Below are positions 34,176 through 49,187 of a stretch of 50,514 nt of DNA, piece by piece (position 1 is the stretch's first letter; each line of letters opens with the position of its first letter). The stretch is from Dehalococcoidales bacterium (GTDB taxonomy: Bacteria > Chloroflexota > Dehalococcoidia > Dehalococcoidales > CSSed11-197): contig JAQUNW010000001.1 in NCBI GenBank assembly GCA_028717385.1, forward strand, positions 77,062 through 127,575, in the 5' to 3' direction. The notes beneath the pieces are model-generated. The model worked only from the letters and a program-made list of their open reading frames with translations. It ran no database searches and was not told the origin of the DNA. The position numbers and the translations under genes are program-made.

Positions 34176-35978
34176 ATGATTCTATCTCTGGCCACGCTTC
34201 TGATTCCCATCCTGATAATATTAGCCATTGTAATGGCGGTCCGCTCAAAAGGTGCTCCGGTTTCCGGCATGGAAGGGGTTTCTATGGCGCGGCATGTATG
34301 GCTCTATCTGCTGACGCTGATTTCATTAGGTATACTGGCAGCCGGGGTAGGCCAGTTGCTCACCCTTTTGTTTGATGTAACTATCAGAAGTTCCTATATT
34401 TCTTCTATTGGCAACCGTCCATTTGACCTGGAAAGGCTCGCGCTTGGCCTTGCCATGATGCTTATCAGCGGCCCCTTATGGTTTTTGTTCTGGAACGGGG
34501 CGCGTCGCCGGATTATACAAAACCCAGCCGAGGGCGACTCGATAATCCGCAAACTGTTTCTTTCCCTGGTGATTCTGGTAGCTGCTTTAATCTTCCTCCC
34601 AACTCTTGCCAGTGTTTTCCGTTGGCTATTATCCGGAGCAAAGGCAGAAAGTTTTTCTTCCTCCAATCTGGCAACTGTCATCGTAACTGGCATTATCTGG
34701 TTTTATCACTGGCGCGTATCAAAACGTGAAGGATTTTCATCTCCCGCAGCCAGGACTATCCAGAGGTGGTACATATATATTCTTTCCGGTTTCGGCCTCG
34801 TGTGGCTGGCTTCTGGCACTATAGTGTTTGTCACTGTAGCGGCGGAGAGCCTGCCATTCTGGAAAGACAGCTTTATCGGCAGCTCTTTCTGGAATGATGC
34901 CATTATTACCGCCATTACCCAGATAGTTCTCGGTGGAGCAACCTGGTACTTCCACTGGTTCCGGATGGCAAAAGCAGATGTCGAATCCGCCCTTCGCCAG
35001 GTATATTTCTACCTGCTTGCCATCACCGGTGGAGCAGTGCTGACACTAGTTGCCGCAACATTATTCTTCTATAAAACCTTTTACTGGTTTTTTGGAGCCG
35101 CTAACGTATCAGCCGGAGAACATTTCCAGTTTCTTTGCTGGACAGTGCCTTCTATATTGGTAGGAATCGCCATCTGGCTTTACCACCGGTCCCTGGCTCA
35201 GGAAGAAGCAGGCAAGGCCGAAGAAAAACGCGAATCCGCCCGGCGTGTTTATATATATCTCGTGAACTTCCTCGGGCTGGGAACCTCGGTGGCAGGGGTG
35301 GTTATGCTCTTCGGCATATTGCTCTCATTTATTATCAATGCCTTGTCCACTTCGCTCACACCAGCCCCCGGCTGGTGGCGGGATCAGCTGGCCATAAGCC
35401 TGGCACTTCTGCTGGTTGGCTTGCCCTTGCTGTTGTACTACTGGAATATCGCCCTCAAGCGGGCTCACATTGAAGCACTGGTAGAGTGGCGTTCGCTTGC
35501 CCGGCGGATTTTTCTGTATACTGCTATCGGTATCGCCATTATCGCCCTCACTGCTGGTCTGGTAAATATCGTTTACCAGTTAATCAGCGGTGTGCTCGAT
35601 TCAACATCATCGGTGAATATCCTGCGTAATTCCCGGTGGAGCCTACAGGCAATTCTTGCGGCTGCACCTGTACTCATCTATTTCTGGCAGGTTTTAAAAT
35701 CAGACCAGCGCCGAGGCTCCGAAACCGTCCTCGCCCAAAAAGAAGTAACCCTGCTTGCATTCGACCCGGGGCGTAACCTTTCACAGGCGCTCCAGAAACA
35801 ACTCGGGTATAAAATACATCTGCTTCAACTGGAAGCCGGGCCATATGAAACTGTGCCCCGGTTAACCGAGGAAGGAATAGCGCTACTATCCCTGGATATA
35901 CAATCTTCCCTTGGTGATAAATTAATGGTTGTTGTTACGGGTGATAAAACACAAATTCTCCCTTACCGGGCAGATTAA
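34176..35978 (+). CDS. Multi-pass membrane protein with six tandem DUF5671-like modules
   Basis: A 600-residue protein made of repeated units of about 75-95 residues. Each begins with a short Arg-rich stretch and R.(V/I/L)(W/Y/F).YL, then a helix, an outer loop of 20-30 residues, and a second helix ending in W.FHW, W.YHR or L.YYW. I count six starts: about residues 38 (RHVWLYLL), 125 (IRKLFL), 198 (IQRWYIYIL), 272 (LRQVYFYLL), 355 (ARRVYIYLV) and 437 (ARRIFLYT). This fits DUF5671 duplicated to about 12-13 helices. A soluble C-terminal domain (about 508-600) follows. The function is unknown. GAGGT precedes the ATG at 34176. The gene converges on the giant-protein operon through a shared terminator region. 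Confidence 0.83.
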   Translation: MILSLATLLIPILIILAIVMAVRSKGAPVSGMEGVSMARHVWLYLLTLISLGILAAGVGQLLTLLFDVTIRSSYISSIGNRPFDLERLALGLAMMLISGPLWFLFWNGARRRIIQNPAEGDSIIRKLFLSLVILVAALIFLPTLASVFRWLLSGAKAESFSSSNLATVIVTGIIWFYHWRVSKREGFSSPAARTIQRWYIYILSGFGLVWLASGTIVFVTVAAESLPFWKDSFIGSSFWNDAIITAITQIVLGGATWYFHWFRMAKADVESALRQVYFYLLAITGGAVLTLVAATLFFYKTFYWFFGAANVSAGEHFQFLCWTVPSILVGIAIWLYHRSLAQEEAGKAEEKRESARRVYIYLVNFLGLGTSVAGVVMLFGILLSFIINALSTSLTPAPGWWRDQLAISLALLLVGLPLLLYYWNIALKRAHIEALVEWRSLARRIFLYTAIGIAIIALTAGLVNIVYQLISGVLDSTSSVNILRNSRWSLQAILAAAPVLIYFWQVLKSDQRRGSETVLAQKEVTLLAFDPGRNLSQALQKQLGYKIHLLQLEAGPYETVPRLTEEGIALLSLDIQSSLGDKLMVVVTGDKTQILPYRAD

Positions 35979-35998
35979 CTCATAGCTCGCATAAACAA

Positions 35999-36025
35999 TT
36001 AAAGGCGGGCAATACCCGCCTTTAA
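35999..36025. terminator. Terminator hairpin between convergent operons
   Basis: A perfect 11-base inverted repeat (35999-36009 and 36015-36025) with a 5-base loop; the core is AAAGGCGGG/CCCGCCTTT. It lies 20 bases after the six-repeat membrane protein stop. A second, weaker hairpin (GGCGGG at 36048-36053 with CCCGCC at 36063-36068) follows and may serve the opposite strand. Confidence 0.75.
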
Positions 36026-36094
36026 CATTACATAATATATGCTCTCCGGCGGGCTATTATCACCCGCCTGGAACATGTTAATAACAGCTATGAC

Positions 36095-39000
36095 CTACGG
36101 CACCAGTTCAATCGCATCGGCATACACCATTCTCCGGCTATATATCGGTACTACGCCGGGTACGGAAAATACCTCGAATTCCTTGATAAGCAAGCGGTAG
36201 CTCTTAGCGGTATCCGGCAAGGTTATATCTCCTGTCCAGGTGGTGGTTCCAGCGATACTGATTTTCGCGTTAGGCGTAAGTATTACCGGGTTCCAGTCTA
36301 CTGGCTCCCATGCCAGTTCCCCGGCAACCGAAGGGTCAATTCCGTCTCTCACCTTTTCCAGACTGGCTTCAATAGTAGCCGGACCGTCATTTCCACTGGC
36401 CATGCTGTAGCTGTTGCCGGTAACGGAAATATGGCGCAATGCAGAATTAGCCCCGTCCCGGGTTACACTGGCAAACCGGTCGGGAGTGATCTGGGCAAAA
36501 TCAGCCAGTACCACCCGGGAAAGATGTACGTTTTCCCGCGTAGTATCTACCACCGTATCCGGCCCGGTTATTGCCCGGTAAAGCGAATAAGGCTGGTAAC
36601 GGGCCAGCGCCAGACGTATGAACGGAAAATAGGTGTTCCCGGCATCGATTTCCATATCGCAATACCACAGCTTTCTACTAGCATCATAACCCACGGTATG
36701 CCCGGCAACATTAATTTTCAGATTCTGGTCATTGACCTCTTCCAGCAACATGCCGGTTGCCTGGTATTCGCTTTTGGAAAGCTTGAAGGCACCCAGAGTC
36801 GGCATTTCATCGATCGGGCTGGAACGGAATACCGGGTCCATGCCCCATTGGGTAACAAACGGCCGGATTTTTTCCAGCTCCTCATCATTGGAAACGGAGA
36901 TATTGTCCGGACCGGGCCAGATGATTGCCGCCAAAAGCTCGCCATCACCAGAGGTATACCATGGCCTTTCCATGTATATGCGTAAACCCCCGCCCTTGCG
37001 CTCGCTGTTAATGGTAGAATCTCCCTTTCCGCTGACGTTGGTCCGCCAGCTGAAGGTTGGAACAATATAGAGTACTCTGGGTGCAGCCGGCCTGGCGGTA
37101 CTCAACACATCCAGTGTACGCGGTGCCTCAGTTACCCGGGTGACAGGTGTTTCAATATAAGTAATTTCCAGATCCTGGTTTTCCGGTATAGCACCCGGAT
37201 TCTCTTCAGAGCCAGTGCGGCGGATAGTGCCGGACCCGTAATCAATAACATAATCCCCGGATTTAGTCTCCGGGTCCCAGCGCTTGTAGGTAGCTTCTTT
37301 ACCGGCAAGCCGAACTGTTTCGGAACCTTCTACCAGCCCTTCGGAAGACAGTGTAAACGTAGAACTTCCGCTCAGGCGTACGCCTTTGTTTCTCTTGCGA
37401 AAATATTCAGCAAACCGTGTGGTTGCAATAGCAGAATAGGTTATTTGACGGTATTTGGTATCTCCAAATTCGTGCCTGCCTTCCAGATGAATACCTTCTT
37501 CCTCTTCCGGTTTGGTAGCCAGCGGCACCGCCTGCTCAAAAGGTCTCGCGTTTACCGTAAGCACCTTCGGCTCCGGTTCACCAACCGGATCGATGGTTTC
37601 CTGCCAACCGGCCACCATGTCCAGTTTCACCGTACTCTTCCGGCTCACCCGCATCATCCGGTCCTGCAGGGTGGCGAAAGTCTGGCCGATGCTCCTGGAA
37701 ACAAAGAACTGGTTAAATTCAGGGGTTAGAAGCGGTTGGCGGACTGCATGCACCAGGGTGAGTTTCCGCCAGGGTGTAAGCATCCAGTGCCGCCCCTCAA
37801 CTGCCAGCACCAGTGCCGGATTCTCATCCTTGCCGGCTTCCATTATCCAATGAATCAGCCCCATCTGCAGGGCATCTTCCTTGTTCATGGCCGAGCTGAG
37901 TTTGATATTGGCAATTTCCGCCTTGGGCAGAAGTACTTCAAGCACCCTGGAGCCTTCATTAAAGTTGACTTTTGGTAAATCAGATTCGCCGAGTACCAGC
38001 CTGAATGGCAACGCCTGTGGCCACTTTAACCCTTCATCGTATCCGAAACTCACCGGAACCAGCCCGGTTATACCGGAGATGCCTCTTAACACCGCCCGCC
38101 TTGCAAACAGATCTGGCAGCCAGGGAAGTTCAAGTTTATCTTCATCCAAATACGGATGGTTCTGGTTATCCGGATCCGGTACACCAGTTATAATCCCGGA
38201 TTCCTTCGGCACAATTACAGAATAGGCGTTTTCGTCCACCAGACCGCTTTGCATGTCATCGAAAAGGTTGTGTTCTTCAGCCAGGGATTGTGAAACCTTG
38301 GGAGGAACAATATGGCGTTCGCTGACCCCTTCAAAGGGGCGGTCGTAATTACTGCGGATGACCACATGGTCCACCGATTCCCCTTCGGTAATCCGGCTCC
38401 GCATCACCGTTACCGGAGGAGGCACCGGTTCCATGCGCCCATATACCAGGATGTCAGTTGCATGCTGGTCATCCAGGAGCGATTTGTCATTCATATCCAG
38501 CCGGTTGCCGGCAAGATCCACCGCTCTGGCCCGCACCCGGTAGGCGACACCGTAGCGCAGGCGCGGCAGAGAACCCGATATGGGCTTGAAATTTACCTCA
38601 AGCTTGTAGGCTGGGTCTATTTCGTTGCCGGTATAGCTTGGGTTGCCATCTGCATCCAGGGTTTTCCCCGGGCGGGGAGCGCTCAAGCTCCACCCGTTCC
38701 AGTGAAAAAGGCTTTCACCCTGTTTCAAAACATCTGTCGAATCATCTGCTGCAGAAGCAACACTTTCAGATACCCAGCCTTCATCCTTTGCTTTTTCAAC
38801 CAGAGGAGGATCGGGTCTGGTAAATTCGTATATTCCCGAACGTTCGCAGAGGGAATGCCATTTATTGGTAATGGAGTCCCAGATATCTATTGCATAACCG
38901 CGGGTAATGTCTTCTGAGTCCAGGGTAATATCATCACCGCCAGCAAGATTCTGGTTTATCTGATCCTGGCGAACAAAGGTCTTGTGGGTTTGTTCGGCCT

Positions 39001-40120
39001 TGTCGATCCGAACTACAGAAATTCCACCGGCACGAAGGGATGGCACCGAAGACTGGGCAGGGGTATCATCGGTTTTCTTCCAGGATCTGGCTACAGCCAG
39101 CCCGGTAGCAAAATTGAGCATCTTGATGGCAGCGCCTTCAGTATCCACGTGCACCACTTGCCAGCGCCGTTTGTCTTCCAGAGGAAGCATACGGTCGGCA
39201 ATTTCCGGAGCACTGGCTCTGGGCAGCGCATAAAAACCGCTTGCACTTACATGACAGCGGGTTTCCATCCGCCGGTCAGAAGAAGGCAGATTCACCGTAA
39301 CCACTTCACTTTTATTTGGCATCCAGGTAACCAGCACCTGTACCGTATTTGTGGTAGCTATGCGTATAGGAATCGGCACAATCAGGTCATGCACCAGGCC
39401 GAGCCGGCGCAGTAGATGTGGGTAATCTCCCAGTATGCTGATCATGCGGTGAAAATCGATCTCCGGTGGCTTGATGGCAACCCGATTGGTGGTAAAAGGC
39501 TGCAGGAACAGTTTTGCCCGCATGAAAGATTTTGTTATTTCATCGGGGTCGGTAACGCTTCCGCTTTTATTGTAGCCAGCGCGCTCCAGTTCTCCCAGAA
39601 TATCGGCCACCAGTTTTTCTTCGTTAGATCCCCGGTAGCCGATTGCCAGCGGCCGGAATGGGGCACCTGATTCAATCACCAGAGAATCCGCGATGGGAAA
39701 GTCTTCTCCCTGGGTGGTAGCCAGGTTAACATACTGGTTTTTAAGAAACGCCTGGACATTATTAACCGGGAAGGATTGGATCGGCATACTCTTGAAATCC
39801 TTCATTTCATAGGGCTTGAGGGGAGTATTATCGGTAAAAAGTGCTCTCCACAGCTGTGAGTCTGGACGATCTCCCATTCTGGTGGCAGCAACGGGATTAC
39901 CTGTGCCAAATTGAACATGAAAAATTACTTCCCGGCGGTCGCCTAACGGGAAAAGTGTTTCCGGCCAATCCAGGAAATCCACAAAATCTGCCAGTGTGGC
40001 ATTTGTATCGTCGGATTCGAGCCTGGGAGCGGCAAATACAGAAAGCAGGAGCCTTGTTCCTTCCTTTAAATCAATCAATCCGTTGGGTAGCGCGGTCCAG
40101 GTTATAGTTTGCGTATTCAT
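36095..40120 (-). CDS. Giant 1341-residue protein of unknown function, second gene of the operon
   Basis: No family is recognised. The sequence is beta-rich, with few long helices, no clear signal peptide and no membrane helix. An N-terminal region (residues 1-130) reads like a globular domain (TRLLLSVFAAPRLE, FVDFLDWPETLFP). Near 228-255 there is a helical FHRMISILGDYPHLLRRLGLVHDLIVPIP segment. Near 530-545 YRVRARAVDLAGN is a fibronectin-III/Ig-like strand. Near 945-1010 GSETVRLAGKE...YVIDYGSGTIR resembles strand pairs of secreted repeat proteins. The C terminus is beta-rich and ends RRMVYADAIELVP. The ATG has GAGGAG upstream and lies 20 bases after the stop of the 1167-residue gene, so the two are cotranscribed. 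The role may be structural or secreted, but that is inference. Confidence 0.85.
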   Translation of the reverse strand: MNTQTITWTALPNGLIDLKEGTRLLLSVFAAPRLESDDTNATLADFVDFLDWPETLFPLGDRREVIFHVQFGTGNPVAATRMGDRPDSQLWRALFTDNTPLKPYEMKDFKSMPIQSFPVNNVQAFLKNQYVNLATTQGEDFPIADSLVIESGAPFRPLAIGYRGSNEEKLVADILGELERAGYNKSGSVTDPDEITKSFMRAKLFLQPFTTNRVAIKPPEIDFHRMISILGDYPHLLRRLGLVHDLIVPIPIRIATTNTVQVLVTWMPNKSEVVTVNLPSSDRRMETRCHVSASGFYALPRASAPEIADRMLPLEDKRRWQVVHVDTEGAAIKMLNFATGLAVARSWKKTDDTPAQSSVPSLRAGGISVVRIDKAEQTHKTFVRQDQINQNLAGGDDITLDSEDITRGYAIDIWDSITNKWHSLCERSGIYEFTRPDPPLVEKAKDEGWVSESVASAADDSTDVLKQGESLFHWNGWSLSAPRPGKTLDADGNPSYTGNEIDPAYKLEVNFKPISGSLPRLRYGVAYRVRARAVDLAGNRLDMNDKSLLDDQHATDILVYGRMEPVPPPVTVMRSRITEGESVDHVVIRSNYDRPFEGVSERHIVPPKVSQSLAEEHNLFDDMQSGLVDENAYSVIVPKESGIITGVPDPDNQNHPYLDEDKLELPWLPDLFARRAVLRGISGITGLVPVSFGYDEGLKWPQALPFRLVLGESDLPKVNFNEGSRVLEVLLPKAEIANIKLSSAMNKEDALQMGLIHWIMEAGKDENPALVLAVEGRHWMLTPWRKLTLVHAVRQPLLTPEFNQFFVSRSIGQTFATLQDRMMRVSRKSTVKLDMVAGWQETIDPVGEPEPKVLTVNARPFEQAVPLATKPEEEEGIHLEGRHEFGDTKYRQITYSAIATTRFAEYFRKRNKGVRLSGSSTFTLSSEGLVEGSETVRLAGKEATYKRWDPETKSGDYVIDYGSGTIRRTGSEENPGAIPENQDLEITYIETPVTRVTEAPRTLDVLSTARPAAPRVLYIVPTFSWRTNVSGKGDSTINSERKGGGLRIYMERPWYTSGDGELLAAIIWPGPDNISVSNDEELEKIRPFVTQWGMDPVFRSSPIDEMPTLGAFKLSKSEYQATGMLLEEVNDQNLKINVAGHTVGYDASRKLWYCDMEIDAGNTYFPFIRLALARYQPYSLYRAITGPDTVVDTTRENVHLSRVVLADFAQITPDRFASVTRDGANSALRHISVTGNSYSMASGNDGPATIEASLEKVRDGIDPSVAGELAWEPVDWNPVILTPNAKISIAGTTTWTGDITLPDTAKSYRLLIKEFEVFSVPGVVPIYSRRMVYADAIELVP

Positions 40121-40140
40121 ATCTTTCTCCTCAGCCTTTA

Positions 40141-43100
40141 CTAAACCGGAACCTGGGCAAAAGCCCTCGTGTATTCAATCCATTCGTCATTGCTGACAAG
40201 ATCCTGGAAACCACCAATGTTATCGCCTCCGGCTACGGCGGAAAGCTTAACCATTTCGGGTTTTCTACCGCCGGCGACCATGGATTCACTGTCACCGCCG
40301 CCGGCAATTCTGCGCTCAACGGAAAGCTCGACGCTGGCGCTGAAAAACAGAACTTCAACCTTGACAGTTATCTTGGCCTGCCCCCAGAGTTCGTTTGGCG
40401 GCTTCTGGAAGGCCAAACCAAGGTAGAACTCAATGGAAAGGGTAATCAGCCCCAGTATCTTCATCGAGCCGCCCATGCGTATATAGGAAGTGAGCGCTAT
40501 CGTTTCATCCGGCTGGCCAACTTTTTCCATCTCGAAGTAGATGCCGCCGGCAATGTAAATCTTGCCGCTGGCAACACCGATATCGATCGCCATACTGGCT
40601 CCGAATTCAAGCGCCGCTTCGATCCGTTCAACTCCATCAAGGCCGATCTCGATGGCAAAGAAGCCTCCGCCGCCAATGGCAAAAACGGTAAGCAGGAAGG
40701 GTTTCTCCCGCTCGCAGAAATTAAACCGTACCCGGGCAGGGTTGCCGGTGAAGGGTATGGTAAGCTTCACCCCCAGTGACATATTTTGAATGGCAACAAT
40801 ACCTACCGTAATATTGGGAATAGGCAAATTGAGGCCTACACTTGCCTGGGTCGGGGTTATATCTGCACTCATCCCGTTGCCAAAGTTCTTCATGAAGTTC
40901 TTTAACGGGTTGACAAATTCCAGGCATCCGGCAAATTCAGTTTGATCGATGTCGACATCTACATCGGCTTTCTTGCCGGTTTCGGCGGTAAATACAATCT
41001 TGGTGAAATGCAGTTTCAGAAACAGCAGGCTTCCGTTACCGATCATGTTGACCCAGAAATCACGCAGGTCCCCGGATATGTTATATCTAGGCTCGCCGGG
41101 AGGATCCAGCGGTGTGGTGAATACCCCCTTCACCTCCATGCTGGTTAAGGAAGTCGGCTCGAATATTCCCATTGGGTCAGCCTTTACATCCGGCTTCCAG
41201 TCCAGCCGGGTTTCCAGCGCCTGGGGAGGAAGAAGGTTGTTACCGTTCGGGTAGATCACGTGGTTGGTAAGCTTGGGAGTTTTACGGCCGTCTCCCATGG
41301 TAGCCGCCTGGATGATTTCAGCCAGCAGCAAGCCTCCCAAAATCTTCGCTCCAGAAAAGAACTGGTCCGGGTTGAAAGTGGTTGGTACGGTATCCACCGA
41401 GCCACCGACCGGCCCGATACTACGGGACAGCCCTCCGATGTTTATATTGGGGGTAATCACCCCGCCGGATTTGTCTCCGGAGCCGTCGAAGCTTAATCCG
41501 ACTCCGCTTTTCAACTTCGCCCAGACGTAAGCCGGGTTGGAAGCCGGCTGAAAACCGCCAGTAAGATAACTCGGATGTAATTGAATAATCACCGGTCCGG
41601 GTAGTGATCCTCCAGATGTCTGTTCGGCAGCACTGAGGCGCACCTCGGCTTCTTGCCAGGTAGGAAAGAAGCGTGCCTGGGTATCCGGTAGAGCTATATT
41701 GGAAGGGGAAGGAAGCGTTGCTCCGAGGGTAATTATTTTAACTTCTGTGCTGGTATCGCCCGGCTTGCCGCCGGATACTCCATCTTTCTTCGAGCTGGGG
41801 GCAAAGGCAACTTTCTGCCCTTGCAGGGAGCGGTTGCGCCTCTGCTCGTTGGCAGCGGCAGTGTTATAGGCTTCAACTGCTCCTTCCAGGAACGAAACAA
41901 CATCTGCCGGCTGTTGCAATGTCGAAGAGATAAATGCCAGTGGAGTTGTAAATTCACTCTTTTGCCCGTCTCCATCGGTTGCCACCAGATGGAATAAATA
42001 ATCATTGCCGGCAACCCGCGGCCAGAATGCCTTTTGGCCTTGCCCCTCAAGATCATAGGCATCTCCATGCAGACTGGGGTCATCCAGCGAGGGGGTAACC
42101 AGCGTGGTTATCCTGACGCTTTCAAACGGCCACTGTCTGCCCTGGTGGGGCTGTGAAGAGTGTGCCGGATAGGTTTTAACCGGCTGGCGTACCACAATGA
42201 AAAAACGCTGCCGGAGGTACGCAGCCGGTTTCCCGCCAAGGGTGGACGAGCCCGGAACCGCTTGGCATTTGCGTTCGGTAACTTTAACCAGTGTGGCGGA
42301 ATGCCCGGTGGGGAACAAAAAACCCTTGTATACCACACGCACATAAGAGTCTCTTGCCATAGCCGCCAGATGGCGCCATTCAATCACATCCAGGTCGGCA
42401 GCCGCCGGTGCATCCGGCCACTGGCCAATAGTATCCATCCAGGCACCCAAACTGCTTAACATAAAGCGTTCAGCCTGAATGGGTTGTGGCTTGTAGTACT
42501 GCGTTATATTCCCAGGCGGTATGATGTTGTAATCGGAAGTGAGCCGTACCAGTTGCCACCGGTCGTTATTGGTAAGGCTCATTCTGAATGGAGTCAAATC
42601 ATTGGCATCCGGTGTAACAGCGCGGTCAAAACCGGGAGTCCAGATAGCCCGCAGAGTTCGGTACAGCTCTTCCTTTTCATCTACGGTAAAAGTGCCTGTT
42701 TTTTCACCGGTTGTTTTTCGCACTCCCAGCCGTGTATGCCACAACTCGGTAACGTTGTTGTGAGTTACCGTGCTGGAAGCATGCGCCCAGCCGGCATACC
42801 GGTTGGGGGAAATTATCAACTGCCAGGGAACTTCGATGGCTGTCTGCCACCAGAGCGGCTCCGAAGGCTCTTTTCCGGAAACTGTTTCATCCACCGGTAA
42901 TGCTGTAGGCGCAACGCTGAGTTCGTATTTTTCCCAGGAAAGCAGTTCGTTTAAAGTAAACGGAATCGGCGGAGTCCCGGGCGGGATCTTGAATACCAGC
43001 CGGCTCGGTCCGCTGAGCCTGGCAGCCACCGAACCCGGTTGCGGAAGAGGATCAGAACCGCCGGGCGGGTTGGGGGAATTATCCGGGTCTTCGGTATCAT

Positions 43101-43644
43101 CACTGAACTCTTCTGCAGTTTCCAGAAATGCCTGCTCGCCAATGCTCTGCGGCATGTAATCATTGCCATGGGCAAAGTTCACCACGATGTAAGCATCCCG
43201 GTCCGGATTTTTCCGTTCCAGGTTGGCACCATTCAGCTTGAGGTGGTAAAAATCAAACTTGAGAGCCAGCATATCCTGCTTGCGCAATACCGATGCACTG
43301 AAGTCCGGCTTGACCGTATCGGGTTCGTCCGGAGAGCACCCTTCGAGCGGCAGTTTGATGTTGCAGGAATCGATGGCTATTTGGGGCACAACTCCATTGA
43401 TCAGCATTATCGAACCACCCAAAGCTGCCAGTTTCAGCAGGGCACGTCGAGTTATCGGCTGGCTGCCGAGTGCATCGGTAACCAGCAAGATCTGTCTGAG
43501 GATTAATGGGTCCTGTATCGACGGCAGATCCGAATGTTTGTTGGCACTAAAAAAATCGGATACAAAGCGCCGCCTATCAATATCCTGGGGATCATCTTCG
43601 AGAGGGGATTGGTCTCCGTTTGGATCCAGATTACCTGCTTCCAT
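40141..43644 (-). CDS. Giant 1167-residue protein with twin-arginine-like segment, first gene of the operon
   Basis: No family is recognised. The N terminus is acidic (residues 1-22), then DRRRFVSDFF near 22-31. A twin-arginine-like hydrophobic segment (ITRRALLKLAALGGSIMLINGVVPQIA) sits near 64-90, unusually far in for a Tat signal. The next region is beta-rich and holds Pro-rich linkers (for example near 180-200). From about 880 to 1120 the protein is a run of short alternating strands (for example FGASMAIDIGVASGKIYIAGGIYF, LGLITLSIEFYLGLAF, VEVLFFSASVELSVE), as in a beta-barrel or beta-solenoid. The start is the ATG at 43644, 7 bases after AGGAGG; the GTG at 43650 would be too close. An export role is inferred from the RR segment only. 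Confidence 0.85.
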   Translation of the reverse strand: MEAGNLDPNGDQSPLEDDPQDIDRRRFVSDFFSANKHSDLPSIQDPLILRQILLVTDALGSQPITRRALLKLAALGGSIMLINGVVPQIAIDSCNIKLPLEGCSPDEPDTVKPDFSASVLRKQDMLALKFDFYHLKLNGANLERKNPDRDAYIVVNFAHGNDYMPQSIGEQAFLETAEEFSDDTEDPDNSPNPPGGSDPLPQPGSVAARLSGPSRLVFKIPPGTPPIPFTLNELLSWEKYELSVAPTALPVDETVSGKEPSEPLWWQTAIEVPWQLIISPNRYAGWAHASSTVTHNNVTELWHTRLGVRKTTGEKTGTFTVDEKEELYRTLRAIWTPGFDRAVTPDANDLTPFRMSLTNNDRWQLVRLTSDYNIIPPGNITQYYKPQPIQAERFMLSSLGAWMDTIGQWPDAPAAADLDVIEWRHLAAMARDSYVRVVYKGFLFPTGHSATLVKVTERKCQAVPGSSTLGGKPAAYLRQRFFIVVRQPVKTYPAHSSQPHQGRQWPFESVRITTLVTPSLDDPSLHGDAYDLEGQGQKAFWPRVAGNDYLFHLVATDGDGQKSEFTTPLAFISSTLQQPADVVSFLEGAVEAYNTAAANEQRRNRSLQGQKVAFAPSSKKDGVSGGKPGDTSTEVKIITLGATLPSPSNIALPDTQARFFPTWQEAEVRLSAAEQTSGGSLPGPVIIQLHPSYLTGGFQPASNPAYVWAKLKSGVGLSFDGSGDKSGGVITPNINIGGLSRSIGPVGGSVDTVPTTFNPDQFFSGAKILGGLLLAEIIQAATMGDGRKTPKLTNHVIYPNGNNLLPPQALETRLDWKPDVKADPMGIFEPTSLTSMEVKGVFTTPLDPPGEPRYNISGDLRDFWVNMIGNGSLLFLKLHFTKIVFTAETGKKADVDVDIDQTEFAGCLEFVNPLKNFMKNFGNGMSADITPTQASVGLNLPIPNITVGIVAIQNMSLGVKLTIPFTGNPARVRFNFCEREKPFLLTVFAIGGGGFFAIEIGLDGVERIEAALEFGASMAIDIGVASGKIYIAGGIYFEMEKVGQPDETIALTSYIRMGGSMKILGLITLSIEFYLGLAFQKPPNELWGQAKITVKVEVLFFSASVELSVERRIAGGGDSESMVAGGRKPEMVKLSAVAGGDNIGGFQDLVSNDEWIEYTRAFAQVPV

Positions 43645-43786
43645 AAACACACCTCCTGGATGCGTTTGAACAGTGTAAATACTCCTATGGAACCAGAGCT
43701 TTAGTGTTGATTGTTAAAGCCCTTTTTGGATATTGTTTTAGTAGCCCCTTCCTCCTGAGTCATAATAAAATAATGTATAGAATAGA

Positions 43787-43815
43787 AATATAGAACGCAG
43801 CCGCGTCAGTGTCAA
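43787..43815 (-). promoter_or_regulatory. Near-consensus promoter of the giant-protein operon
   Basis: On the minus strand a perfect TTGACA (43815-43810) and TATATT (43792-43787) are separated by exactly 17 bases. Transcription would start near 43780, giving a leader of about 135 bases before the ATG at 43644. The leader contains a second AGGAGG-like site without a nearby start codon. Confidence 0.7.
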
Positions 43816-43968: not shown

Positions 43969-45261
43969 CTAAACTTCAGGATTTACCACACGGCCGACAA
44001 ATAGATTGGCTCCGGTGATATTATCTCGAATAAGGTATATAAAAGGTCGGTTCATATTAAACTCAACCTGCTGCGAAGGGGCTGAAACTGTCTGCATAAT
44101 CACTGCAGTTGCAGCTGCTGCTTCAGTGCCAGCTTCGTTGACTGAGATGAAGGCCTTGTGCACAACCTCAGCTATGCTAAGATCCTGAGCACCTGTCATA
44201 CCGGAAAAGTCTGCCCCTTCGGTAAAAGCGATTGGCATGCCCATATCAGCAAGGGAATCCTTTAAATTAAAGCGCGATTCGTATTTAAATTTTGGCATGC
44301 TCAGTATTACCTGATGACTCGAGAGAGCTTCTGTGATGCCGAAAACAACATCGGCATTTATATTTTCTTCAAATGTTTTGAAATAACCTTCGGCAGGAAG
44401 CAGGATAATCATTGAAAGCTCCTGTCCGTCATAAGGTATTTCTATTGCCTGGTAGTAATCACCCTCTGTGTAATTGAACCTTTGTTCCTGTTTCATCATC
44501 GAAACAGACAATCGGGAACCATCAAGCAGGAAGAAAAGCTCTTCTGTGGTAACCTCCTCGTCGAAAGGGTAAAGCCAGGCTGCGTTGAAATAAATTGCAT
44601 TGGTTAACACCAGCCGGGTCAGTGCATCTATTGCTCCAGCGGGGACTAAATCCTTAATACGTTCCTCGGTTTGCTGGCTAACCCAGTCATTTATAACCTT
44701 GCGGGATTCTTCTGTATCTTCTATAAAATCTAATATCCGTAATCCCGCATCATAATTTTCTGCCAGAACATCCAGGAAATCATCCATAAAATAGTAGTTT
44801 TCCTGACCCCAGATGGCATTGACGACATTTAATCTGAAGCCGTCACCGTCACTGCCTTTAGCACCTTCCCCCCGTTTGGCCAGCTCTATGTCCAGCTGGT
44901 TAAAAGCCGGGTGCAAATCGTCTTGAGATAGATAGAAATGCAGGGTTTCAGCAATCTGTTCAGCCGTCATCCCCAGGGCGCCAGCATAGGTCATAGCCAG
45001 TGCCACCGAAATCGAATGCGGAGAATAAAACAGGTTGTCATCTTCTATTGATCTAAGCGCGTGGTAGAGATCATATGCGAAATCGCTGTTACCTTCCACC
45101 AGCGTTTCCAGCTCCGCTGAGCTTACATCAGGGGAGGTAATACGATGTTTATCAGATTTAAGAACTTCGGCAGATACGGTTTGTGAGCAAGCCGCAAGAG
45201 AAGCGGTTAAAATCAGGGCGAGCAAGAATAATAAACCTTTGTTTAGTGTCTTAAAATGCAT
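43969..45261 (-). CDS. Serpin-family protease inhibitor, lipoprotein
   Basis: A 430-residue serpin with a lipoprotein signal peptide: hydrophobic residues 9-22, then LAAC with the lipidated Cys at 25. The fold begins FAYDLYHALRS and continues with NLFYSPHSISVALAMTYAGALGMTAEQIAETL near 75-106, NAIYFNAAWLYPF near 222 and SMPKFKYESRFNLKDSLADMGM near 315-335. The C-terminal block NRPFIYLIRD is followed by FVGRVVNP. The reactive-centre hinge GTEAAAATAV near 378-387 has the small residues of inhibitory serpins. By spacing from the hinge, the scissile bond would be Val-Ser near 392-393, implying elastase-like proteases; this could be off by one. Serpins trap serine or cysteine proteases at the cell surface. 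The ATG has a GGGGG ribosome-binding site. Confidence 0.95.
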   Translation of the reverse strand: MHFKTLNKGLLFLLALILTASLAACSQTVSAEVLKSDKHRITSPDVSSAELETLVEGNSDFAYDLYHALRSIEDDNLFYSPHSISVALAMTYAGALGMTAEQIAETLHFYLSQDDLHPAFNQLDIELAKRGEGAKGSDGDGFRLNVVNAIWGQENYYFMDDFLDVLAENYDAGLRILDFIEDTEESRKVINDWVSQQTEERIKDLVPAGAIDALTRLVLTNAIYFNAAWLYPFDEEVTTEELFFLLDGSRLSVSMMKQEQRFNYTEGDYYQAIEIPYDGQELSMIILLPAEGYFKTFEENINADVVFGITEALSSHQVILSMPKFKYESRFNLKDSLADMGMPIAFTEGADFSGMTGAQDLSIAEVVHKAFISVNEAGTEAAAATAVIMQTVSAPSQQVEFNMNRPFIYLIRDNITGANLFVGRVVNPEV

Positions 45262-46816: not shown

Positions 46817-48385
46817 TTATTTCCCAGCAGCAATAGCCTTCATATCAGCTTCTGGTGTGGAAATCGGTTTAATATTAAAGGCTTCAACAAGCTTACCCAG
46901 AACATTGGGCGAAATGAAAGCCGGTAAGCTTGGGCCAAGATATATATTTTTAATGCCAAGAGATAGTAACGTAAGAAGTATGCAAACAGCCTTTTGCTCA
47001 TACCATGAAAGTACCAGAGAAAGAGGCAGATCATTTACACCGCAATTGAATGCTTTTGCCAGCGCAAGAGCTACTTGGATAGCAGAATATGCATCATTGC
47101 ATTGCCCCATATCAATTAGTCTGGGGATACCACCGATTTGCCCAATGTTAAGATCATTAAACCGGTATTTGCCACAACCAAGAGTCAATACGATTGAATC
47201 TTTTGGAGAGTTTTTCACAAAATCCGTATAATAATTCCTGCCTGGCTTTGCTCCATCGCACCCGCCAACCAGGTAGAAGCGCTTGATAGCGCCGGACTTA
47301 ACTCCATCAATTATAGTTCCAGCCACACTCAGTACTGCGTTTTGGGCAAATCCTGTCATCAGTTCCGAACCACCATTTACCCCAGTAAAAAGCTTACCCT
47401 CTTCCCAGCCTCCAAGCTCAAGCGCTTTGGTTATAGCAGGAGAAAAATCCTTGACTCCTGATTGTTCCTTTATATGTTTTATCCCCGGGTAACCTACAAC
47501 AGAAGTGGTATAAATCCGGTCAGAGTAAGAAGGTTTAGGTGGCATCAAGCAGTTGGTGGTATAAACAACCACTGCTGGTATGTGGCTAAATTCTTTCTGC
47601 TGGTTTTGCCAGGCCGTTCCGAAATTCCCCTTTAAATGGCTATATTTTCTTAGAGCCGGATAACCATGTGCTGGCAGCATCTCTCCATGAGTGTATATAT
47701 TTATACCCTTGCCTTTCGTCTGATCGAGGAGCTGCTTTAAATCCAGCAGGTCATGACCGGTGATTACTATAAAAGGTCCCTTTTCGACTTTCATGCTGAC
47801 TTTTGCTGGCTCCGGATTACCGAACGTAGTGGTGTGAGCTTCATCAAGCAAGGCCATACATTGAAGGTTGACTAGCCCGAATTCGAGTATAAGATTAAGC
47901 CATTCTTCAGCGGTATGGTCTCCACCTATGGCACGCATACCTTTATAGAGCCAGGCAGTAACATCTTTATCATTTTTACCAAGCAGATGTGCATGCCAAG
48001 CATAAGCCGCCATACCTCTCAAGCCGAAAAGCAGGGTGGAACGAAGAGAGACGATATCTTCATTCCCGGCAAACAAATCGCTAGCTGCCATGTCAGAAGC
48101 TCCACCCAAGTGGTTTTTCTCTGTTTTAATCTGTGTTTTAATTTCATCGATAGCTGCTGGGTCGAAGTTGACGTTGGTCAACGTAGCGAACAGGCTCTTC
48201 ATCATGAGTTCGTCCACTTTTTTACCGGGAGTTTTGCCTTCTGCTGCTCTGGCAAGTCCAATAATCGCTCCGGTGAGTTCGTCTTGCTTTGCAGATACTT
48301 CCGGTGTTTTTCCGCAAACACCTATTTTGGTGCAACCTTTGCCTGCTGCGGTTTGCTCACACTGGAAACAAAACATATCGTTCAT
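46817..48385 (-). CDS. hcp: Hybrid cluster protein (hydroxylamine reductase)
   Basis: A 522-residue iron-sulfur protein with the hybrid 4Fe-2O-2S centre. It acts in anaerobes in nitric-oxide and hydroxylamine detoxification. The N-terminal 4Fe-4S motif CxxCx8Cx5C is seen as CFQCEQTAAGKGCTKIGVC (residues 5-23). Hybrid-cluster ligands appear in THGEMLPAHGYP near 231-242, TTNCLMPP near 280, VGGCDGAKPGRN near 375, LTLGCGKYRF near 405 and the Glu- and Cys-containing segments in between. The length fits the short, anaerobic class without the extra N-terminal insert. The gene is divergent from a Crp/Fnr regulator across 109 bases with an operator-like palindrome. The ribosome-binding site is AGGGG. 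Confidence 0.96.
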   Translation of the reverse strand: MNDMFCFQCEQTAAGKGCTKIGVCGKTPEVSAKQDELTGAIIGLARAAEGKTPGKKVDELMMKSLFATLTNVNFDPAAIDEIKTQIKTEKNHLGGASDMAASDLFAGNEDIVSLRSTLLFGLRGMAAYAWHAHLLGKNDKDVTAWLYKGMRAIGGDHTAEEWLNLILEFGLVNLQCMALLDEAHTTTFGNPEPAKVSMKVEKGPFIVITGHDLLDLKQLLDQTKGKGINIYTHGEMLPAHGYPALRKYSHLKGNFGTAWQNQQKEFSHIPAVVVYTTNCLMPPKPSYSDRIYTTSVVGYPGIKHIKEQSGVKDFSPAITKALELGGWEEGKLFTGVNGGSELMTGFAQNAVLSVAGTIIDGVKSGAIKRFYLVGGCDGAKPGRNYYTDFVKNSPKDSIVLTLGCGKYRFNDLNIGQIGGIPRLIDMGQCNDAYSAIQVALALAKAFNCGVNDLPLSLVLSWYEQKAVCILLTLLSLGIKNIYLGPSLPAFISPNVLGKLVEAFNIKPISTPEADMKAIAAGK

Positions 48386-48432: not shown

Positions 48433-48474
48433 AATATATTACAATTTTAAAGATAAGTCGGTAACATTTGTTAC
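48433..48474 (-). promoter_or_regulatory. hcp: HcpR-type operator and class II hcp promoter
   Basis: A perfect palindrome GTAAC-ATTT-GTTAC lies at 48461-48474. On the minus strand a TATATT -10 element lies at 48438-48433, whose centre is 32 bases from the palindrome centre. This is the geometry of a class II CRP/FNR site centred at -41.5, with transcription near 48426 and a leader of about 40 bases to hcp. For the regulator gene the same site lies 21-34 bases before its ATG, which suits autoregulation. Confidence 0.7.
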
Positions 48475-48494
48475 ATAATTTTCAGGAGGAAGAT

Positions 48495-49187
48495 ATGTAC
48501 ACAAAATGGCTTGGGGTTTTAAAGGCTTCCCCGATTTTTAACGATATTGAAGAAACCAATTTAAGCACTATGCTCCAATGCTTGAAACCAGTAAAAAAGG
48601 AATATGAAAATCGTGAAATAATCGCACTGGATGGAACAGATTTTTCCGGTATTGGAGTGGTTGCTGACGGTAAAATTGCTTTAACTCGAGATACTTTTGG
48701 CGGAAATCGAGTTATATTGCAGGTGTTAGGACCTGGAGACATCGTTGGGGAAATGGTAGCTTTTTCGAACCTTAAAAAATGGCCTTTTACCGTGATTGCC
48801 CAAGATGATTGTTGCCTGTTTTTTTTACCGACTTACAAAGTAATGGGGTACTGCTCCAATATCTGCAGTTCACATTCTACGCTTATAATGAATATATTAA
48901 ATATCCTCTCTAACAAAGCAATAGCTTTTTCCAAGACTATTGAACATCTCTCAGCCAGGAGTATCAGGGGCAGGGTATCAAGCTATCTTCTCGATGAGTT
49001 CAAACAGCGTGGGGAAAAACATTTTTCTCTCAGAATGAAAAGAAATGAGCTTTCTGATTATCTGGGCATCCCAAGGCCTTCCCTTTCAAGAGAAATGGCT
49101 AACATGAAAAATGATGGTATTATTGATTACGATGGCGCTGACATAACTATCAAGAGTGTTATCCGACTTGAAGAGGCAATCGAATAG
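48495..49187 (+). CDS. Crp/Fnr-family regulator, HcpR-like
   Basis: A 230-residue transcription factor. The N-terminal cyclic-nucleotide-binding-like domain spans about residues 8-125, with LDGTDFSGIGVVADGKIAL near 37-55 and VLGPGDIVGEMVAFSN near 72-87. A dimerisation helix (about 130-160) follows. The C-terminal winged helix (about 161-230) has LRMKRNELSDYLGIPRPSLSREMANMKNDGII, where PRPSLSRE is the recognition helix. It is divergent from hcp, the arrangement of HcpR regulators that activate hcp in response to nitrogen oxides. It has no N-terminal Cys cluster like FNR, so a 4Fe-4S sensor is unlikely. I start at the ATG at 48495 with AGGAGGA upstream rather than at 48468, which overlaps the palindrome. 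Confidence 0.92.
   Translation: MYTKWLGVLKASPIFNDIEETNLSTMLQCLKPVKKEYENREIIALDGTDFSGIGVVADGKIALTRDTFGGNRVILQVLGPGDIVGEMVAFSNLKKWPFTVIAQDDCCLFFLPTYKVMGYCSNICSSHSTLIMNILNILSNKAIAFSKTIEHLSARSIRGRVSSYLLDEFKQRGEKHFSLRMKRNELSDYLGIPRPSLSREMANMKNDGIIDYDGADITIKSVIRLEEAIE

Follow-up and report, generated by a model that had tools for sequence, protein, structure and literature searches.

A co-inherited pair of very large orphan proteins in a Dehalococcoidales bacterium, with a Tat-like signal on one partner

The stretch of DNA analysed here (the window) is 50,514 nucleotides of contig JAQUNW010000001.1, from a 1.37-Mb metagenome-assembled genome of the Chloroflexota (Dehalococcoidales). Our subject is an operon of two genes on its minus strand (36095-43644), A first and then B, which encode very large proteins of no recognised family. 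The explanation we lean towards is that A and B form an obligate complex which is exported by the twin-arginine translocation (Tat) system and includes a hydrophobic-sheet domain. It builds on features read from the sequence: the two-gene unit, its co-inheritance, a Tat-like signal on A only, the Tat machinery of the genome, beta periodicity and helical inserts.

The mechanism would run as follows. A and B would be co-translated as two subunits of one obligate complex, encoded by a unit that is transferred whole from one bacterium to another. The Tat signal on A, which sits behind an unusually long N-terminal stretch, would lead to export of the folded complex with B as a ‘hitchhiker’, leaving A outside the cytoplasm, tethered or released. 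The C-terminal ~300 residues of A would form a long beta sheet, hydrophobic on one side, which might hold a hydrophobic ligand (a lipid or envelope component), and the variable amphipathic helical insert that precedes the sheet in some homologues would act as a spacer or lid.

Pairing, distribution and transfer

Both proteins have clear matches at 32 loci, and in every one of these the gene for A immediately precedes that for B on the same strand, the two being a few tens of bases apart at most or overlapping. Distribution was established by profile searches with B and reverse searches with A, and some counts include the genome at the centre of the search. Relatives of B occur in 7/301 genomes of Chloroflexota, 7/199 of Acidobacteriota and 1/199 of Bacillota, with two clear and two marginal cases among 240 Alphaproteobacteria, so the frequency ranges across these four groups from approximately 0.5 to 3.5% of genomes. 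Reverse searches with A returned the same genomes: all seven in Chloroflexota plus three with partial A matches only (one of them reaching to 5 bases or fewer from a contig end), the identical set of 7 among 199 in Acidobacteriota, and the same two clear Alphaproteobacteria plus one partial match. Co-occurrence of the two genes, which the preliminary description of this DNA had raised as a question, is therefore complete among B-bearing genomes (7/7, 7/7 and 2/2 clear cases, respectively). Pairwise distances for A and B are also strongly correlated (mirror-tree r = 0.91 over 27 pairs, with 0/2000 permutations as high), and the correlation is 0.93 after removing four giant rhizobial/Ruegeria forms. 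We hold with high confidence that A and B are an obligate pair.

The pair is sporadic even close to home: within the window's own order only 7/61 relatives carry it, and it is absent from all tested genomes of one family of that order (f9). Phyla are intermixed in the tree of A and in that of B, which indicates horizontal transfer, and by this evidence the two genes are a module that has moved as a unit between at least five bacterial phyla. The window's nearest relative in both trees is a genome from another family of the same order (G039), not from its own genus. Plasmids carry the pair in Streptomyces, Cupriavidus, Diaphorobacter, Rhizobium, Sinorhizobium, Ruegeria, Agrobacterium and others, and the plasmid copies are hypothetical proteins wherever annotation exists.

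Spread on plasmids and sporadic occurrence, together with copies on conjugative plasmids that adjoin mating genes or lie close to DpdE/DpdF, would suit a module for antagonism or defence, e.g., against competing cells or phages. We consider this very improbable: PADLOC gave no convincing match, phage genomes and viral contigs yielded no relatives of A or B, the neighbours change from locus to locus and an immunity-like partner gene is lacking. A phage or phage-tail-like structure, or a viral origin, was also rejected, with no match in PHROGs, phage genomes or viral contigs.

Some loci have irregular copies. Two Chloroflexota genomes hold two diverged copies of the pair each (L039 and L040 in G132; L041 and L042 in G111), and one G132 copy falls within the Dehalococcoidales clade, suggesting that the copies were acquired independently. 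Genes split over two reading frames, which we read as pseudogenes or sequencing errors, affect A in L064 (G479) and L015 (Rhizobium) and B in L047 (Agrobacterium vitis). Two further loci (L070 in G786 and L071 in G915) have ORFs (open reading frames) of >1200 aa that match residues 419-578 of B only, at marginal significance (E ~1e-7), and may represent a remote branch of that family.

The operon in the window has these parts:

43787-43815, minus strand: promoter-like site upstream of A, TTGACA-17-TATATT (11/12 consensus bases; from a consensus scan, which is no proof).
40141-43644, minus strand: gene A, 1167 aa, starting at ATG 43644 (ORF with an ideal Shine-Dalgarno sequence; kept in five phyla).
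36095-40120, minus strand: gene B, 1341 aa, starting at ATG 40120, without a signal peptide (GAGGAG, likewise an ideal Shine-Dalgarno site, lies 6 nt upstream of the start).
35998-36026, minus strand: stem-loop resembling a terminator, past the end of B; 13 pairs followed by a modest run of T (likewise from a consensus scan, which is no proof).

The promoter-like site and the stem-loop enclose exactly A and B. The preliminary description had given two ORFs of 1167 and 1341 residues, 20 bases apart, and its coordinates and the 20-bp gap held. It had also placed the start of A at ATG 43644, which is correct: AGGAGG (43657-43652) lies 7 nt upstream, while the GTG at 43650 that the gene-calling tool gave is just 1 nt from AGGAGG. 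Reading frames, order and spacing are all kept across phyla, a pattern that excludes chance.

Neither protein has a match above chance in Pfam, NCBIfam, PHROGs, PADLOC or PDB sequences. Sets of 13 homologues of each gave nothing convincing in Pfam or NCBIfam, or as profiles in PDB, and the consensus sequences of A and B gave nothing above chance in Pfam. The earlier reading that neither has a recognised domain is borne out by these scans, and the strong family match that would have overturned it was looked for and found for neither. Weak matches were judged unconvincing: a phage tail tube family (NCBIfam, E 0.0016, three members), SprA (NCBIfam, E 0.0056, one member), which may stem from a small beta domain that certain B proteins carry as an insertion, and Csx25 (PADLOC, E 0.0095), a single stray match in a homologue with none for A or B of the window. 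The two proteins are not duplicates of each other (hhalign 0.1%). AlphaFold models reached a mean predicted local distance difference test score (pLDDT) of 32 for A (4-sequence alignment) and 36 for an Acidobacteriaceae B (6 sequences), values kept low by these shallow alignments, and Foldseek with both low-confidence models found nothing below E = 1e-3. We rest no conclusion on these models, and the names Foldseek returned for A (TamB, lipopolysaccharide-binding protein, barrels) were not used as evidence. We found no description of the pair in the literature, of which our coverage is incomplete. By these searches, A and B are two orphan families and the pair is undescribed.

Signal and export

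From N- to C-terminus, A consists of a signal, a core, a hinge and a C-terminal domain (C-domain). Domain boundaries come from the profile, and the residue numbers of A used for them count from GTG 43650.

43375-43452, minus strand: twin-arginine signal-like segment of A, TRRALLKLAALGGSIMLINGVVPQIA, with equivalents in homologues.
41299-43293, minus strand: conserved core of A, residues 120-784 (profile boundaries).
40303-41214, minus strand: C-terminal amphipathic beta-strand domain of A, residues 813-1116 (beta periodicity).

The segment in the window matches the Tat-substrate motif, S/T-R-R-x-F/L-L plus a hydrophobic stretch (TRRALLKLAALGGSIMLINGV). The preliminary description had called it twin-arginine-like, and it proves real and conserved: 19/28 A homologues with a readable N-terminus have such a signal, 18 by pattern and one (TRREFLK) by eye. 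Many of the signals are canonical (e.g., TRREFLK, SRRTFLG, TRRDFLG, SRRKFLS), and they occur in Chloroflexota, Bacillota, Acidobacteriota, Actinomycetota and Alphaproteobacteria. The same pattern occurs in 17/948 other ORFs taken as background. In B the pattern appears in 0/35 homologues, in line with the earlier statement that B has no export signal. The source genome encodes TatC (E 1.6e-64) and three TatA-like genes, all on one contig (contig 30). These findings support Tat export of A in most lineages, and we consider it very likely that A is exported by Tat in this organism.

Since B has no signal and is strictly paired with A, it probably travels with A, a step we hold with less assurance than the export of A itself. 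Natural Tat hitchhiking is documented (PMC4273604, PMC10924467), and A and B share with hitchhiker complexes such as E. coli PaoABC (PMC4273604) the adjacent genes and the Tat signal on one subunit with a signal-less partner. They differ in belonging to no known hitchhiker family and in that a third of A homologues are signal-less, and their co-export is a prediction. On the conjugative plasmid pC of Sinorhizobium meliloti LMB1, a pair of 3052 and 1766 aa is followed by tatA 50 bp downstream (L016 19244-19411), which suggests a dedicated Tat component for so large a cargo.

Alternatively, the Tat-like segment could simply hold A in the membrane while B stays cytoplasmic, any complex being transient. 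B lacks a signal in all homologues tested and the window segment has no clear cleavage site, as this would predict; yet a plain anchor would have no use for the conserved twin-arginine motif, and one copy comes with a tatA gene of its own. We judge this improbable.

The five Dehalococcoidales A proteins (window 43320-43375; L019-L022) have two cysteines after the Tat segment, at positions of which three vary. The second is lipobox-like in several A proteins (LAGC, IVAC, LEGC, LESC), and the cysteines could serve lipidation or a disulfide.

Sheet domain, conserved residues and rival explanations

The C-domain of the window A has a beta periodicity of z 5.3-5.8 against shuffles, with a median of 4.9 across 32 homologue rows, which puts a number on the alternating strands the preliminary description had noticed there. 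The rest of the window A, and B, are at z ~0, and one low row (L064, z 0.7) is an artefact of its split gene. For comparison on the same scale, a small, hand-picked yardstick set (approximately 20 proteins) gave 6.7 for AsmA, 6.9 for YhdP, 5.9 for YdbH and 9.1 for TamB (all E. coli), 1.4-3.5 for OmpF, FhuA, BamA and LptD, 4.1 for Ag43, 3.1-3.8 for alpha2-macroglobulin and ≤1.0 for soluble enzymes. The C-domain, whose periodicity is in the AsmA-family range, may therefore work as an AsmA-type hydrophobic sheet, perhaps forming a groove, without belonging to the AsmA family as far as this evidence goes. An outer-membrane beta-barrel was rejected: the periodicity is unlike that of OmpF, FhuA, BamA and LptD, and the same domain occurs in Streptomyces, which has no outer membrane.

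A shares with AsmA-like envelope proteins (AsmA, TamB, YhdP, YdbH; PMC8593681) an amphipathic beta pattern of approximately 300 residues and similar strength. It differs in having no sequence homology to them, a Tat signal in place of an N-terminal membrane helix, an obligate partner B, and a range that includes single-membrane phyla. YhdP, TamB and YdbH are reported to be phospholipid transporters (PMC8593681, PMC11226057).

The hinge insert before the C-domain is 15-40 residues long in short forms (28 in the window), approximately 160-250 in two Chloroflexota, Elioraea, Cupriavidus and Diaphorobacter, and 683-1181 in the rhizobial and Ruegeria giants. All five hinge inserts tested are amphipathic-helical (z 2.9-5.9), while that of L043 has a different composition. 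Amphipathic sheet plus amphipathic helices is a combination A shares with large lipid-transfer proteins and apolipoproteins, from which the pair differs in being bacterial and in its domain order. Pfam matches to Apolipoprotein E (0.067) and the vitellogenin sheet (E 0.19) are at chance level and not significant. Lipid handling is a lead only, and a hydrophobic-ligand role for A is a tentative idea to which we give a low probability.

B has two parts of note:

38498-38569, minus strand: Fn3/Ig (immunoglobulin)-like motif of B, LPRLRYGVAYRVRARAVDLAGNRL, from the sequence.
36575-37096, minus strand: the most conserved part of B by homologue comparison, with ERPWYTSGDGELL, FVTQWGMDP, LWYCDMEID and LARYQP.

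We take the first to resemble Fn3 strands. The preliminary description had spoken of Ig-like segments in B; one motif (LPRLRYGVAYRVRARAVDLAGN) is present, and its Ig-like nature is unproven. The second is the part to which the most distant plasmid homologues match.

Dozens of D, E, R, H and W residues are invariant across phyla, and these invite a different explanation, a two-subunit enzyme, exported or cytoplasmic, whose invariant polar residues form the active site (RPWF-SG-GE, TQWG-DP and LWYCD-E-D in B; MGRD and GH-A-LVKVTERK in the core of A) and which uses Tat for prior folding or cofactor loading. Tat is typical of cofactor enzymes, and signal-less homologues suit an activity on either side of the membrane. 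However, no library scanned returned a catalytic domain or cofactor motif, metabolic neighbours do not recur and conserved cysteines are few, so we think an enzyme unlikely, if less so than the membrane-held form of A.

The same invariance speaks against a cell-surface structural or adhesive pair, as first proposed in the preliminary description, because adhesins are usually variable. Large, strand-rich, exported proteins would fit such a pair, as would the Fn3-like motif in B, a helical stretch of variable length in A that could be a stalk, and the small secreted proteins near some copies. However, no anchor motif or tandem repeat was seen, and the distribution is sporadic, with signal-less forms and the f9 absence noted above. 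We therefore consider this rather improbable. Of the earlier idea of an undescribed secreted or surface structure, the undescribed and probably exported character stands, and a surface structure is not demonstrated: nine of 28 A homologues are signal-less, and the pair is rare and in single or double copy, unlike an S-layer (surface layer).

Several findings count against the Tat-exported complex with a hydrophobic sheet, too. Its main weakness is that 9/28 testable A homologues have no N-terminal signal at all (Elioraea, Cupriavidus, Diaphorobacter, one Rhizobium, one Streptomyces, three Acidobacteriota and one Chloroflexota), so export is not universal. The Tat segment of the window A is preceded by a long stretch of approximately 65 residues and shows no clear AxA site for cleavage. 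Co-inheritance alone would produce a high mirror-tree correlation. The C-domain aligns to AsmA, TamB, YhdP and YdbH with hhalign probabilities of ≤0.3% and has no Pfam match, and the structure models failed (pLDDT 32 and 36), so the sheet is derived from periodicity alone.

Neighbouring genes and significance

A serpin gene (43969-45261, Pfam E 3e-115) with a lipoprotein-type signal adjoins A across a gap of 0.3 kb. The gap contains two inverted repeats and the promoter-like site of A, so the serpin looks like a separate unit. Convergent with the pair is a gene (34176-35978) whose product, a membrane protein of 600 aa, contains DUF5671 five times. The preliminary description had linked A and B to this serpin and membrane cluster, but no counterpart of either lies close to A and B in other Dehalococcoidales or beyond them, and with neighbours not conserved both were ruled out as parts of the A-B system. 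Beyond A and B, no shared neighbours were found across loci except generic ABC-transporter and signalling families. Bacterial alpha2-macroglobulin (YfhM) and serpin inhibitors resemble the system in the large multi-domain beta protein and the serpin gene beside the pair, but there is no Pfam macroglobulin-domain match, and the serpin gene, a unit of its own, does not accompany the pair at other loci.

The rhizobial and Ruegeria pairs, and also those in L047 and L049, are flanked by small proteins with Sec-type signals. The one next to the Ruegeria pair (L046 27696-28157) has a C-terminal motif, CDGQP-YD-DY---DVN--LAI, in common with a small ORF close to the pair of Sinorhizobium (L016 3578-3790). 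Elsewhere in the window, the ORFs 46817-48385 and 48468-49187 face apart; we take them to be a hybrid-cluster protein (Hcp) gene and a Crp/Fnr-type regulator gene, which are known to be arranged in this way.

Large families without a characterised member are nothing unusual. Even so, two families of >1100 residues with dozens of invariant residues, present in at least five phyla and in none of the libraries scanned, point to a conserved biochemical function that has apparently been overlooked. In its fullest form, the proposal is of a Tat-exported obligate machine for hydrophobic envelope molecules in single- and double-membrane bacteria, built from families unrelated to known lipid-transfer proteins and passed between phyla as a cassette; we regard this as unlikely in its entirety. 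If the pair is a natural Tat hitchhiker complex, its size of approximately 280 kDa would be very large for a cargo. Given the AsmA-like periodicity, a role in lipid handling can be tested directly with these two genes, which form a clonable unit.

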